Source of the DNA: Bacillus sp. FJAT-22090
Lineage (GTDB): Bacteria; Bacillota; Bacilli; Bacillales_A; Planococcaceae
Assembly: GCF_001278755.1 (NCBI RefSeq)
Contig: NZ_CP012601.1
Coordinates: forward strand, 2,480,001-2,544,000
Reading direction: 5' to 3'
DNA: 64,000 bases
A program made the position numbers and the translations under genes. The number at the start of each line of letters is the position of its first letter. The first letter of the stretch is position 1. The notes beneath the pieces are model-generated. The model made no database searches and was not told where the DNA came from. It saw only the letters and a program-made list of their open reading frames with translations. Shown here in pieces: positions 11,982 through 57,900 of the stretch.

Positions 11982-12080
11982 CGAGCTCACCTCGTTCATT
12001 TAAGTCTATATCATTCCTATTATAAAGAAAAAGTCTCTTCCTCGCTACTTTTTCTAATGGAGAGTGTTTATTTTTAGTGA

Positions 12081-12481
12081 AGGGAGACTAATTTGTCTAT
12101 GGGAGCAACCATATTAAAATGAAAGCAACCAATTCCAATACATCAGCAACCATTTCTCATTCTCTGATAGATTACGCGTGTAATTATTTTCCTTTTAAAG
12201 TTGCAAAATAGCACTTCGAGACTAATTACGTTGCAACCGAGACCAATTCACAGCTATACGAGACCATTTCCCTCTGAAACGAGACTAAATCCAGAGTAGC
12301 CGAGACCATTTCTCAAAATAAGTCTCTGATAGATTACAGGTGTAATTATTTACCTTTTAAAGTTGCAAAATGGCACTTCGAGACTAATTACGTTGCAAAC
12401 GAGACCAATTCACGGCTATGCAAGACCATTTCCCTCTGAAACGAGACTAAATCCAAAGAAGTCGAGACCATTTCTCAAAAT
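12081..12481 (+). repeat. 21-nt phased GAGACC/GCAACC motif array, locus 1
   Basis: Two copies of a block of about 160 bp each hold five GAGAC(C/T)A motifs whose cores start at 12221, 12242, 12263, 12284, 12305 and at 12383, 12404, 12425, 12446, 12467, exactly 21 nt apart. A diverged block upstream has cores at 12087, 12108, 12128 and 12149. The array fills the prfA-tdk gap and has no ORF. It abuts the tdk terminator. See findings. Confidence 0.85.
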
Positions 12482-12509
12482 AAGAGTTATCTCACGTGAG
12501 ATAACTCTT
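12482..12509 (-). terminator. terminator after tdk
   Basis: AAGAGTTATCTCAC at 12482-12495 is followed directly by its perfect reverse complement, a 14-bp dyad with TTATTTTG on the minus-strand downstream side. It ends the tdk transcript 14 bases past the stop. The last unit of the phased array runs into its left arm. Confidence 0.85.
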
Positions 12510-13453: not shown

Positions 13454-13612
13454 CTCTATCTCTCCTCTCGCCCTGAACCATCTGGAACAGAGTTGGTTAT
13501 AAAACTGATACCTTACACGATCCGATTGATTGCCAACCGTATATGTAGCAGAAAATTGTAAACTTACATTGAACATAATAGCATGTCTGTTATTAAAATG
13601 CAAGTTCTTCGA

Positions 13613-20120: not shown

Positions 20121-20639
20121 ATGAAAATGTTAACGACACAAGTGACAGGTCTCCTCCAAAGAATAGTAAATTCGGAGGAAGAAAATATTGAAGAAACTGC
20201 TAGACTTCTTGCACAAGCGGCTGCAAGAGAAGGCTTTATATACTTTGCAGCATTCGGTGAAATGGAAAGTATTACGATAAATGCAGAAAATGCCGTAGAA
20301 AAATTCCCAAGTTTGAGAGTTTGGACTTCCAATTCCGAACTTACAAGTGCAGATCGCGTTTGGATCATCACTAGATCTAGTGAAAACGAAGATGCTCTAG
20401 CGCTTGCAGAGAAATTAAGTGCAGAATTTATTCCGTTCAGTGTACTTGCTGCTGAAAATCATAGTAATGAAAACAAACTAGCGAATCTTGCTTATACATA
20501 TATTTCTTTGAAACTTACCAAAGGCTTACTACCTGCTGAGGATGGCAGCAGAATCGTTTTACCTTATGCGCTAAGTGCAATGTTCGTATACGAGGCTGTC
20601 AAAATGAAGCTAGACGAGATTCTTTTAAACGAAGATTAA
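20121..20639 (+). CDS. ywjG: DUF2529 family protein YwjG
   Basis: A 172-residue protein of the family encoded beside spo0F and pyrG in Bacillus. The fold is probably SIS-like (alternating beta strands and helices, IYFAAFGEME, RVWIITRSSENEDA), suggesting binding of a phosphosugar or nucleotide, but no function is known. GAGGTG precedes the ATG. It is the only plus-strand gene between 1 and 47.8 kb and converges with pyrG. Confidence 0.85.
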   Translation: MKMLTTQVTGLLQRIVNSEEENIEETARLLAQAAAREGFIYFAAFGEMESITINAENAVEKFPSLRVWTSNSELTSADRVWIITRSSENEDALALAEKLSAEFIPFSVLAAENHSNENKLANLAYTYISLKLTKGLLPAEDGSRIVLPYALSAMFVYEAVKMKLDEILLNED

Positions 20640-20653
20640 AAATTAGCATCAAT

Positions 20654-20690
20654 ATGCCCATGGAAATAAGAAATTTCCGTGGGCATTTTA
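20654..20690 (+). terminator. terminator after ywjG
   Basis: ATGCCCA-T-GGAAAT (20654-20667) pairs with ATTTCC-G-TGGGCAT (20673-20686), followed by TTTTATATT. It begins 14 bases past the ywjG stop. Confidence 0.9.
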
Positions 20691-20769
20691 TATTAACTTG
20701 GATTCTAAGGGTATCACCTAAAGATTAGTCGCTGTTTTTATTGTTAAGTTTCACTGTTAATAAATTTAT

Positions 20770-21580
20770 TTTGAGAAATGGTCGCTCTTATGATGGAATT
20801 GGTTGCTTTCAGTCGAGAATTGGTCTCGCTCATTGGGTAATTGGTTGCTCTCACACTTAGATTGGTCGCCATTTGCCATTTAATACCTAATTACCCAGAC
20901 TACTTCATAAGAAACCCATTTCTCAATTGAAGTTAACTCTATATTGTGAAATGGTCGCGCTTATGATGGAATTGGTTGCTTTCAGTCGAGAATTGGTCTC
21001 GCTCATAGGGTAATTGGTTGCTCTCATACCAATATTGGTCGCTCTTTGCCATTTAATTCCTAATTAATAGGCTCCTGCATAAAAAATCCATTTCTCATTT
21101 AAAGTAAACTCTATATTGTGAGAAATGGTCGCTCTTATGATGGAATTGGTTGCTTTCAGTCGAGAATTGGTCTCGCTCATAGGGTAATTGGTTGCTCTCA
21201 CACTTAGATTGGTCGCCCTTTGCCATTTAATACCTAATTACCCAGACTACTTCATAAGAAACCCACTTCTCAAGTGAAGTAAACTCTCCATTTCGAGAAA
21301 TGGTCGCTCTTATGATGGAATTGGTTGCTTTCAGTCGAGAATTGGTCTCGCTCATTGGGTAATTGGTTGCTCTCACACTTAGATTGGTCGCCATTTGCCA
21401 TTTAATACCTAATTACCCAGACTACTTCATAAGAAACCCATTTCTCAATTGAAGTTAACTCTTTGTTTTGAGAAATGGTCTCGCTTGCGATGGAATTGGT
21501 TGCTTTCAGTCGAGAATTGGTCTCGCTCACTGGGTAATTGGTTGTTCTCACACCGATATTGGGCGCTCTTTGCCGTTTAA
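20770..21580 (-). repeat. 21-nt phased motif array, locus 2 (five tandem blocks)
   Basis: Five tandem blocks have GGTCGC/GGTCTC-type first motifs beginning near 20781, 20954, 21128, 21303 and 21478, a period of 173-175 bp. Within the first block the GGT cores are at 20780, 20801, 20822, 20843 and 20864, exactly 21 nt apart, alternating GGTCGC, GGTTGC, GGTCTC, GGTTGC, GGTCGC. The blocks are separated by about 90 bp of A/T-rich spacer. Written on the minus strand the motif is GAGACC/GCAACC, as at loci 1 and 3. It occupies the ywjG-pyrG convergent gap. Confidence 0.88.
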
Positions 21581-21589
21581 TTCCAAATA

Positions 21590-21621
21590 AAAAAGCAGTT
21601 CGACAAGTCGAACTGCTTTTT
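21590..21621 (-). terminator. terminator after pyrG
   Basis: AAAAAGCAGTTCGAC (21590-21604) and its reverse complement (21607-21621) form a 15-bp stem with a 2-base gap, so the loop will open by a pair or two. T runs on both sides allow action in both directions. It follows the pyrG stop by five bases. Confidence 0.93.
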
Positions 21622-21626
21622 CTTTT

Positions 21627-23276
<1,650 letters not shown>

Positions 23277-27734: not shown

Positions 27735-28300
27735 GTTTGGAGGCACTGAAAAAGTTCTCCATGAGATTTCATAACAGTATGTGAACGACAAATTGTTCAG
27801 ATACTCGATTATTTATTTTAGACCCATTAATTTCCGTTCCAGGCGGACGCTTTCCACCGGCATGGCTTCAGCCGCTTCCCTCGCTACGCTCAGTCCAGGG
27901 TCTTCAGCTCATGCTATTCCGGTAGGAGTCGCCGCCCTCCACTCCAATTAACTATTATCCCTGTTCAATTAGAAAACCATCATGCCATTAATAGAGCAGA
28001 TTTTATCATATAAATTTTTTTTAATTAGTATTTATAGAAAATCCTTGAAAAAGGCGACACTCCTGCGGGAATAGCGTTAGCCGAAGACCCCGCAGCGCAG
28101 CGAGGAGGCTAAGGCAACGCCCGCGGAAAGGGAGCCGTTTCAACGATTTTCTTATTTATTGGACGACATGATTTATTAAAGTCAAATTCTATAGACTTTT
28201 TCAGTGCCCTCCCCCGTTTGCCTGTCTGATGCCTACACGAAGTGGGTCATACAGTCGTTGCGCAATGATGTTGCGAGCTTAGATTGTATTCCTCTACTAG
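27735..28300. repeat. GC-rich dyad repeat composite R1 (fills the icmF-TetR gap)
   Basis: The 27655-28315 gap holds no supportable gene. AGGCACTGAAAAAGT (27741-27755) and its complement (28195-28209) form outer arms. Inside lie a left module beginning near 27822 (AATTTCCGTTCCAGGCGG, GGGTCTTCAGCTC) and a right module near 28025-28200 (GCGACACTCCTGCGGGAAT, GAAGACCCCGC). The left-right pair is repeated at 47.39-47.78 kb, and the right module occurs inverted at 57.63-57.90 kb. A tail at about 28216-28292 resembles a block found inserted in the latter. Confidence 0.8.
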
Positions 28301-35934: not shown

Positions 35935-36105
35935 CAACACTTATTTATTCTAAATTGCGCGAAATTAGTAGAAAATTTATTTTAGTAGTTCGGAAATGCT
36001 AGGTGATTAAATAAAATTGTACAAGTCACTACTTGTACAATATATGTTTCAGAATATGTAAACTTGCCTGGGATTATTTTCAATTAATAGGTATTATAAG
36101 ACACT

Positions 36106-36470
36106 TTGAGACCAATTGCTCCCTAACAGCAACCAATTGATTGCCCAACGAGACCAATTTACACCAATCCGCAACCAATTCCTACACAAGCGAGACCATA
36201 TCTCGTAATAAAGAGTTATGTTGATGTGATAAGAGTTAATTACTACTGGCCTTATATTCCTTCTGGAATTATTTTCTATTAAAAGTAACTATACGTCACT
36301 TCGAGACCAATTGCTCCCTAACAGCAACCAATTGATTGCCCAACGAGACCAATTTACACCAATCCGCAACCAATTCCTACACAAGCGAGACCATTTCTCG
36401 TAATAAAGAGTTATGTTGATGTGAGACAATATTTCTAACTCTATTCGGATTAAAGCAACCATTTCTCTAA
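36106..36470 (+). repeat. 21-nt phased motif array, locus 3
   Basis: Two blocks 195 bp apart each have five ACC(A) cores at 36111, 36132, 36153, 36174, 36195 and 36306, 36327, 36348, 36369, 36390, all exactly 21 nt apart, alternating GAGACC, GCAACC, GAGACC, GCAACC, GAGACC. A single GCAACC follows at about 36455, just before the cblS terminator. The rest of the fadF-cblS gap (35864-36505) shows only the operator described separately. Confidence 0.87.
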
Positions 36471-46736: not shown

Positions 46737-46819
46737 AGAATAGGTATAAATCTGCTAGGTTAAAACATGCCAAGCGGACTTACACATAACCTATCCTCGT
46801 AGGTAGTAAAGTGTAAACG

Positions 46820-46936
46820 CATAAAGGCAGGTTTTCTGACTTGTGATCATGTACAATCACTTACAGTGGCGGGACCGCGCTGGACTTGCACCAGCTTCCC
46901 TTTTAACTTACTAGTAAACTAGCAAGCACCTTTATG
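46820..46936 (-). ncRNA. cobalamin (B12) riboswitch aptamer
   Basis: Minus-strand P1 is CATAAAGG at the 5' end (46929-46936) with CCTTTATG at the 3' end (46820-46827). Conserved class-I features follow in order: AAGGTGC near the start, GGGAAGCTGGTGCAAGTCCA, GCGGTCCCGCCACTGTAA, and the B12 box AGTCAGAAAACCTGCC. It heads the cobalamin operon and should repress it when adenosylcobalamin is abundant. Confidence 0.96.
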
Positions 46937-46964
46937 TTCAAAATATTCTTGATGCATCGATTTC

Positions 46965-57227: not shown

Positions 57228-57424
57228 CAGGTTTTCCGAAGCTTACCGCTCGCTTTCCGCGGGCGAGCGCCGAGCCGCTTGGGCCAACATGATGTTGGTC
57301 ATGAAGGCGTTGCCTCAGGAGGAGGCGCCCTTAGCCTTCCGTCCTCTAACACGCTCCTGCAGGGTCTCGTCTGTCTCGCTTTGCCGCAGGAGTCGAGCGG
57401 ACGCTTCTCCAAACCAATAAAATG
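57228..57424. repeat. GC-rich dyad repeat R4, between ywhB and its terminator
   Basis: Terminal arms GGTTTTCCGAAGCTTACCGC (left) and the complement of GGTTTGGAGAAGCGTCCGCTC (right) bound a GC-rich core with CGCTTTCCGCGGGCGAGCG, GATGTTGGTCATGAAGGCG and CCGCAGGAGTCGAGCGG. It has an arm identical to the end of R2. Confidence 0.8.
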
Positions 57425-57547: not shown

Positions 57548-57900
57548 TGAACTGTTAATCTTCCGCTACTGGCGGACGCTTTCCGCTGGCGTGGCCGATC
57601 CGCTCCTTCGCTCCGCACGATGTCAAAAGTCTATAGAATTTGATTAAACTAAATATGTCGTCCGATAAATAAGAAAATCGTTGAAACGGCTCCCTTTTCG
57701 CGGGCGTTGCCTTAGCCTCATAGGCAAACACGATGTTGGTCATGCAATCGTTGCCGCAAAAGTTCTTTTGCGACGAGCTTTGCGCAGGAGCAGGATGCGG
57801 CGAACTTAGATTGCCTTCCCCTCAACTGCGGGGTCTTCGGCTAACGCTATTCCCACAGGAGTGTCGCCTTTTTCAACGATTTTCTATAAATACTAATTGC
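57548..57900. repeat. GC-rich dyad repeat R5 with a nested insertion
   Basis: From about 57627 to 57895 the sequence is an inverted copy of 28025-28200 (AAAAGTCTATAGAATTTGA, TGTCGTCC, AAGAAAATCGTTGAAACGG, GGTCTTCGGCTAACGCTATTCCC). A block of about 105 bp (after GCCTTAGCCTCATAGG to before CTGCGGGGTCTTCGG) interrupts it and has no match in R1's right module itself, but resembles part of R1's tail and R4. The rest of the 57534-58115 gap has no supportable gene. Confidence 0.8.

Follow-up and report, generated by a model that had tools for sequence, protein, structure and literature searches.

Organization of the ywjG-pyrG Gap

The window, i.e. the whole stretch of 64,000 nt that was analysed, covers positions 2,480,001-2,544,000 of the 4.21-Mb genome of Bacillus sp. 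FJAT-22090 (G000). Within it, a ywjG-type gene and pyrG converge on a gap that holds a tandem array of short cores phased at 21 nt (Table 1). A motif scan retrieved 23 good cores from this gap, in five blocks with a 21-nt step; they lie within 752 nt, and 18 of the 22 steps between them measure 21 nt. Blocks 1-4 contain five good cores each, and the two decayed cores of block 5 read GGTTGT at 21540 and GGGCGC at 21561. An earlier note on this DNA had placed the GGT of the first-block cores at 20780, 20801, 20822, 20843 and 20864, in the variant order CGC, TGC, CTC, TGC, CGC, within five blocks at 173-175 bp; we recovered the same positions and the same order, and the blocks start 173, 174, 175 and 175 nt apart. 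The periodicity was indeed clear upon autocorrelation, which reached 0.454, 0.446 and 0.362 at lags 21, 42 and 63, versus about 0.26 ± 0.016 in 200 shuffles, and 0.596 at lag 175. With at most one mismatch, the longer word RAATTGGTYKC matched the window 54 times, versus 13.2 ± 3.3 times in shuffled sequence, a count of 54 being reached in none of 100 shuffles. Two terminator-like sites flank the array (1.4 ± 1.3 in shuffles), and the one on the pyrG side presumably serves pyrG, on the opposite strand.

Table 1. Arrays in the window and features of the ywjG-pyrG gap.
Feature	Position	Strand	Remark
Second array	12102..12473	-	Same core family; between release-factor gene (RF-1 domain) and tdk, both on minus strand
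ywjG-type gene (DUF2529)	20121..20639	+	Left neighbour of array, convergent
Terminator-like hairpin	20654..20686	+	14 pairs, after ywjG
21-nt phased array	20776..21569	+	Five blocks; 13-nt cores AAWTGGTYKCKNT
Block 1	20766..20938	+	173 nt, five cores and linker
Block 1 cores	20776, 20797, 20818, 20839, 20860	+	
Block 2	20939..21112	+	174 nt
Block 2 cores	20949, 20970, 20991, 21012, 21033	+	
Block 3	21113..21287	+	175 nt
Block 3 cores	21123, 21144, 21165, 21186, 21207	+	
Block 4	21288..21462	+	175 nt
Block 4 cores	21298, 21319, 21340, 21361, 21382	+	
Block 5	21463..21588	+	Three good and two decayed cores, ending at pyrG-side hairpin
Block 5 cores	21473, 21494, 21515	+	Then two decayed
Terminator-like hairpin	21590..21621	. 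(scan listed +)	14 pairs, separating array from 3' end of pyrG
pyrG (CTP synthase)	21627..23222	-	Right neighbour of array, convergent
Third array	36105..36464	-	Same core and step; two 195-nt-period blocks, each with five cores in CTC/TGC alternation, and one further core at 36452

Arrays in the Source Genome

The earlier note had made its reading depend on an enrichment of 21-nt phasing outside the pyrG spot, and a genome scan revealed such an enrichment, with two more arrays in the window and about 22 genome-wide. Pairs of TGGTYKC separated by 11-41 nt numbered 71 in the whole genome, 55 of them at 21 nt, 6 at 20 nt and 10 at other spacings (one at 22 nt), versus 9 pairs for the reversed pattern used as a control in the same genome. 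The array loci come from stretches that include all pairs spaced 20-21 or 40-41 nt apart; the 8 pairs falling outside these loci include none at those distances and one at 22 nt. The arrays of G000 form 22 clusters in 21 gaps, each cluster having a single orientation, and none of the 22 lay within an open reading frame (ORF) of at least 90 codons. Alignment of 90 units revealed a 13-nt core, AAWTGGTYKCKNT, and about 8 nt devoid of conservation.

The genes beside these arrays are diverse, including tdk, pyrG, mreB, murA, a topoisomerase and a transporter (30 neighbouring proteins were scanned against Pfam, two of which had no match). Three arrays (L055, L056, L058) directly follow the 5S gene of an rRNA operon, in the orientation of the rRNA, and arrays in two loci of G013 (L084, L104) are placed likewise. 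At L054:4338-5174, an array stands 48 nt behind a gene with a LytTR domain; being one of 22 arrays, this neighbourhood is probably due to chance.

Distribution of Core Words Among Genomes

Named records with the array pattern were Psychrobacillus soli, Bacillus sp. FJAT-22090 and one cyanobacterial MAG contig, and we infer the genus of the arrays to be Psychrobacillus. In the MAG contig, labelled Oscillatoriales cyanobacterium, one match stands at L086:4689-4722, which may reflect contamination or chance.

At least one array family was carried by 18 of the 19 genomes of the genus, weakly so by G014, and none was seen in G002. The earlier note had pointed to relatives as a place to look for the motif; 21-nt arrays are indeed present there, though with cores that depend on the clade. 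The invariant is thus the spacing and not the motif, the cores varying between lineages. Five core families, namely TGGTYKC, TTACTTGC, TCTCTCG, TTGTMGTRAA and TTTGTCGC, were found in the genus, each mainly in one clade or group of species.

Pairs of TGGTYKC at 21 nt, counted in 261 genomes of the family, numbered 31-337 in seven genomes of the genus, 6 in G011 and 0-3 in the remaining 11; among the 242 family genomes outside the genus, more than five occurred only in G201 (83) and G193 (10). At the level of the class, 397 of 398 genomes had at most 6 pairs, the exception being G000, in a scan that reads this core alone, is blind to the others and represents the genus by only two genomes. The four other cores were counted over whole genomes at 20-22 nt in 22 genomes, with 0-3 pairs per genome for reversed-pattern controls. 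Pairs of TTACTTGC were found in G008 (211), G003 (78), G006 (42), G007 (40) and G014 (2), and in none of the 17 others; those of TCTCTCG in G003 (51), G006 (38), G017 (35), G004 (12), G007 (8) and G014 (3), with 0 in 16 genomes; those of TTGTMGTRAA in G001 (68), G012 (58) and G018 (46), which belong to one clade, with 0 in the other 19. Pairs of TTTGTCGC numbered 22 in G011, 1-3 in seven others (G002 having 1, the same as its control) and 0 in 14. Both TTACTTGC and TCTCTCG arrays are thus present in each of G003, G006 and G007; in G000, TGGTYKC is the only one of the five cores to exceed single pairs.

A five-protein tree groups the TTGTMGTRAA genomes in a clade (98/98) and the TTACTTGC and TCTCTCG genomes, G017 excepted, in another (100/100). 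The TGGTYKC genomes form a clade of modest support (81/92), inside which G011 and G017 carry other words. The ywjG-pyrG gap itself contains core pairs of four families across 12 of the 16 genomes with a readable gap, G004 and G016 having a single pair each; G013 also has an array there, masked by an open frame in the 16-genome comparison. At L134 (G008) and L129 (G003), TTACTTGC-type cores occupy both strands of this same gap.

Outside the genus, samples of at most 20 kb were taken from 20 Bacilli genomes belonging to other families, and lag 21 was detected in 0 of their 186 gaps; in samples from 20 genomes of the same family, it was detected in 4 of 167 gaps (G019 1, G201 1, G193 2), G201 and G193 having entered this sample because they were known to carry arrays. 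In these two genomes, which belong to another genus, a 20-nt step was observed (L145:17096, L146:16138), together with a 40-nt step composed of about 21 + 19 nt.

Constancy of the Step and Helical Phase

The main step was 21 nt in all nine genome-family sets (160 steps at 21 nt in G013). Other steps occur: the TCTCTCG set of G003 has 54 steps at 21 nt and 15 at 19 nt and, in spacing lists covering spacings seen at least twice, steps of 19, 20 and 40 nt also appear over the nine sets and 22 nt is absent. Phase is therefore not absolute, as steps of 19-20 and 40 nt are common in some families. At the TGGTYKC loci, overlapping loci being counted twice, we found 364 steps at 21 nt, 11 at 20 nt and 0 at 22 nt, as well as 61 at 42 nt and 22 at 63 nt corresponding to decayed or missing units. 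A lag scan that uses no motif, applied to the gaps near pyrG in 21 genomes, pointed to the same value: 16 genomes contributed 20 gap pieces with lag 21 (two G009 pieces belonging to one gap), versus 8 matches over the other 30 lags between 10 and 40 together. It also detected an array in G014, which yet has few core pairs.

Phasing may extend beyond the blocks. Inter-block gaps that depart by more than 1 nt from multiples of 21 preferred a 10.5-nt period (R 0.575, n = 45, best period 10.50, versus R 0.12 at 21). A value as high occurred in 0 of 3001 null draws, in 7 of 3001 when unique values were used, and in 89 of 3001 when unique TGGTYKC values were used; in new arrays, a test fixed beforehand gave 2 gaps as predicted out of just 3 usable ones (P 0.5). 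This 10.5-nt phasing, noticed after the fact, is no more than suggestive, and part of the signal may stem from the loss of 2-5 nt in the 21-nt register, e.g. gaps of 61 and 82 nt. In G001, an A/C position differs between neighbouring units in 51 of 68 pairs, by a hand count inflated by block duplication, which hints at a superperiod of 42 bp.

Core Constraint and Copying

Cores are conserved after block duplication and spacers are not. In 11 sets of tandem block copies (excluding one copy counted twice and the set at 12075-12500, which has no spacer columns), cores had a nucleotide diversity of 0.084, as compared with 0.205 for spacers and 0.229 for linkers. The ratio of core to spacer diversity, 0.41, compares with 1.12 ± 0.35 in neutral simulations that passed the same detection as the data and assumed a star tree, none of the 200 simulations being as low. 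Units carry 18-23 bits over 11-15 positions in the nine genome-family sets, partly by construction because they were located through their core.

Arrays have also been copied. Blocks of about 160-195 nt are duplicated in tandem and copies at separate loci have common spacers; units are not independent, as arrays are copied within genomes. Such copying is in line with a selfish or neutral satellite, generated by slippage and unequal recombination, spread by copying and tolerated away from promoters, with no host function; cores would then be alike through the recent common ancestry of the copies. The patchy species counts, from 0 to 337 pairs, and the under-representation of divergent gaps (see below), as for tolerated insertions, also agree with this explanation, which is the main rival to reading the arrays as protein-binding platforms. 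However, cores are conserved over spacers in duplicated blocks beyond the neutral simulation, the 21-nt main step is kept despite randomised spacers, and arrays recur in one gap with four different cores; we hold a satellite of this sort to be unlikely.

Placement Relative to Genes

Arrays sit 3' of genes, without a sense strand, in the sample examined. Among 105 array gaps from 13 genomes, covering the five core families, 43 were convergent, 58 tandem and 4 divergent, versus 26 convergent and 61 divergent among the 282 other gaps of the same stretches, a number obtained by subtraction (Fisher P 8e-12 for convergent gaps and 6e-6 for divergent ones). This count leaves out four arrays counted inside an ORF and did not mask tRNA genes, so that the L056 gap, behind an rRNA operon, was scored as convergent despite a same-strand tRNA cluster; for genomes other than G000, the stretches contain some but not all arrays. 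Cores in tandem gaps were on the strand of the genes in 27 cases and on the opposite one in 31 (P 0.69), and arrays occupied both strands in 1 of the 105 gaps. The 3' position and the lack of a sense strand speak against a role as an RNA linked to the transcripts of adjacent genes. Neither distinguishes function from tolerance: against the reading as protein platforms, convergent placement could be mere tolerance of insertions. A polarity toward the origin or terminus, like that of KOPS, was considered for the core orientation and dropped because nearby arrays lie on both strands.

Coding Potential and Transcription

As the earlier note had pointed out, stops break the reading frames of the pyrG array, and across arrays no frame is consistently open. 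Heptad repeats in a protein would nevertheless suit a unit of 21 nt, i.e. seven codons, and by a crude ORF call, ORFs of 100 codons or more overlap 25 of 136 arrays, some of which lie within ORFs of 312 and 290 codons; in frame +0 of G013, 10 stops were counted where 21.2 ± 3.7 were expected. Against a coding function, the open frame varies from array to array, stop counts in the other unit frames and genomes mostly deviate by no more than about 2 sd from column-shuffled controls or are too low to be informative, and steps of 19, 20, 40 and 41 nt shift the frame. Coding heptads, disfavoured by this analysis of frames and stops, are in our view scarcely credible. The two long open frames, at L061:12489-13427 (312 codons) and L099:6265-7137 (290 codons), consist largely of array DNA read in different frames, and may be listed as hypothetical proteins in annotation.

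The earlier note had also proposed an RNA repeat, in line with the notion that arrays are transcribed into sponges or small RNAs which bind a protein or mRNAs. A small-RNA role has been proposed for related satellites (PMC8161180), and the 52-nt satellites of B. coagulans appear in RNA-seq data (PMC8625621). Our results do not support this proposal. Ten folds, corresponding to five array regions on both strands, were not clearly better than shuffles (z from -1.4 to +1.6); no sigma-70-like site was found in 20600-21700, versus 3.1 ± 1.8 in shuffles, and the pyrG array is flanked on both sides by terminator-like hairpins. Moreover, arrays show no strand bias relative to genes (27 vs 31) and a helical step is unnecessary for an RNA. 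Repeat RNAs thus appear distinctly unlikely. An RNA hairpin was likewise rejected: a pyrG block of 175 nt folds at about -45 kcal/mol, but neither the 150-nt piece examined nor four other array regions folded better than shuffles.

Comparison With Known Repeats

Plasmid iterons are direct repeats with a step of about two helix turns, cooperatively bound by an initiator, and the arrays differ from them in being chromosomal and dispersed. An origin from plasmids or phages was set aside, as a blastn search with the 823-nt array retrieved no match from 72,556 plasmid and 50,697 phage records. CRISPR arrays have repeats of about 23-47 nt, spacers of similar length and cas genes nearby; the 13-nt core, the spacer of about 8 nt and the lack of a Cas domain in the Pfam scans of 30 neighbouring genes do not fit such an array.

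REP repeats share a 3' placement and are bound by gyrase. REP/BIME elements are dispersed intergenic repeats with hypothesised roles in supercoiling, termination and mRNA stability, REPs being palindromes of 20-40 bp (PMC3733652). The arrays, by contrast, are asymmetric direct repeats, and palindromic hairpins were not apparent in five regions, which fold no better than shuffles.

The repeats of LytTR sites are 9 bp long, which with a separation of 12 bp gives a step of 21 bp. These sites consist of direct repeats that are mostly separated by 12 bp; their spacing is conserved and their sequence poorly so (PMC6193735), which sets a precedent for a fixed spacing with variable words. LytTR sites are pairs located just upstream of promoters, whereas the 21-nt arrays lie behind genes; the pyrG array occupies a convergent gap with 0 promoter-like sites. 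Elsewhere, the tandem array gaps (58 of 105) could hold a promoter. LytTR proteins were set aside as a candidate partner of the arrays: they were present in all 21 genomes searched and do not track the arrays, because they also occur in G002, which has no array family; no covariation was seen.

The earlier note knew of no element with such a motif. This was mistaken as regards the kind, as constant-length, species-specific, non-coding satellites of 20-21 nt have been described in Bacillus (PMC8161180). There, Subirana and Messeguer (2021) report repeats of 20-21 nt and of 52 nt, of constant length and species-specific sequence, generally non-coding, with several families per genome and a short characteristic sequence per species; noting that 21 nt correspond to two helix turns, they suggest a polymerising protein or a small RNA and leave the function open (PMC8161180). 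Our arrays belong to this described and functionally unexplained kind, with which they have in common a constant unit of 20-21 nt, non-coding character and species-specific sequence. Indeed, counted from cores, the ywjG-pyrG array keeps its unit length constant to ±1 nt in at least 60% of units, with at least 4 units per 800 nt. The absence of a consistent open frame and the steps of 20, 40 and 41 nt agree with a non-coding nature, frame +0 of G013 being an exception. The five core families combine a group-specific sequence with a length common across species, several families of the same length coexist in G003, G006 and G007, and TGGTYKC is a short characteristic sequence of the G000 units, partly by construction since this core was used in the search. 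Satellites of 52 nt, found in B. coagulans and others, are also of constant length, variable sequence and non-coding (PMC8161180, PMC8625621); they differ from the arrays in unit length and in being reported as transcribed (PMC8625621), and we remark that 52 nt correspond to about five helix turns.

The main text of PMC8161180 does not mention Psychrobacillus, nor the words convergent or intergenic. What is new here is the occurrence of arrays in 18 of 19 genomes of one genus, with clade-dependent cores and the 21-nt step kept; also new, relative to what PMC8161180 sets out in the parts considered, are the constraint on core plus spacer, the different cores at one orthologous gap and the placement at 3' ends. 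The literature searched, which left most subscription journals outside its coverage, reports no binding protein for such satellites.

A Putative Protein on One Face of the Helix

Of the three suggestions of the earlier note, a protein array on one helix face is the best supported, by virtue of the 21-nt step, the core constraint, the lack of orientation bias and the lack of a consistent coding frame; what did not follow is the protein itself, as none was found. We regard the arrays as probably being phased, double-stranded platforms for a putative oligomerising protein whose specificity changes between lineages. This reading is drawn from the step, the motif-free lag scan, the core constraint, the replacement of cores, the four cores in one gap, the placement and the 10.5-nt gaps. 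From a mechanistic point of view, the ywjG-pyrG array would be one of many dispersed non-coding platforms phased at 21 bp on double-stranded DNA, where a sequence-specific protein would dock one subunit on each asymmetric core of about 13 bp. With cores two turns apart, all subunits would lie on the same side of the helix, and they could therefore touch and form a patch or a filament. The specificity of this putative protein would have changed between lineages, the cores following genome-wide and the step remaining unchanged. At the 3' ends of genes, frequently in convergent gaps and in some cases after an rRNA operon, a bound patch may act as a transcription barrier, or as an anchor for the nucleoid or its topology.

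DNA shape alone was weighed against such a protein. An AATT-type step recurring every two turns might create a phased bend or a supercoil anchor, favouring for instance gyrase, with no dedicated protein. The 21-nt phasing is compatible with this, as are the positions behind genes and some rRNA operons, where positive supercoils are expected. The repeated part is, however, a mixed-sequence word rather than an A-tract, and it depends on the lineage; such lineage-specific words are unnecessary for shape alone and argue against it. We consider this explanation very unlikely.

Returning to a protein bound on one helix face, the system would not be essential, as no array family was seen in G002 and pairs were few in G014. 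The coexistence of core families in G003, G006 and G007 would call for two or more proteins, or for one of relaxed specificity. It is conceivable, and we put it forward tentatively, that the arrays are a bacterial counterpart of the fast-evolving pairs formed by satellites and satellite-binding proteins, in which a dedicated DNA-binding protein would switch specificity between lineages and its platforms behind genes would be replaced in concert genome-wide, the two-turn geometry and the genomic home site being kept. Constant-length bacterial satellites had already been reported, and one genus now offers a natural series with a constant step and a word that depends on the clade. As one gap can be read with four words, the question of the partner becomes testable: the gene expected is one whose DNA-contacting residues change on the same branches as the core. 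If confirmed, this would constitute a chromosome-bound system, not recognised before, at the 3' ends of genes.

Other Elements Near the Arrays

Three copied intergenic stretches of G013 combine a 21-nt array with, after it, a sequence that we take to resemble Bacillaceae-1 RNA (RF01690). This known dispersed element also occurs in the window, at 28232-28298, 57284-57350 and 57725-57825, all on the minus strand. The window further contains, on the same strand, a cobalamin riboswitch at 46809-46948 and, to the right of tdk, an L31-Firmicutes ribosomal protein leader at 13462-13492.
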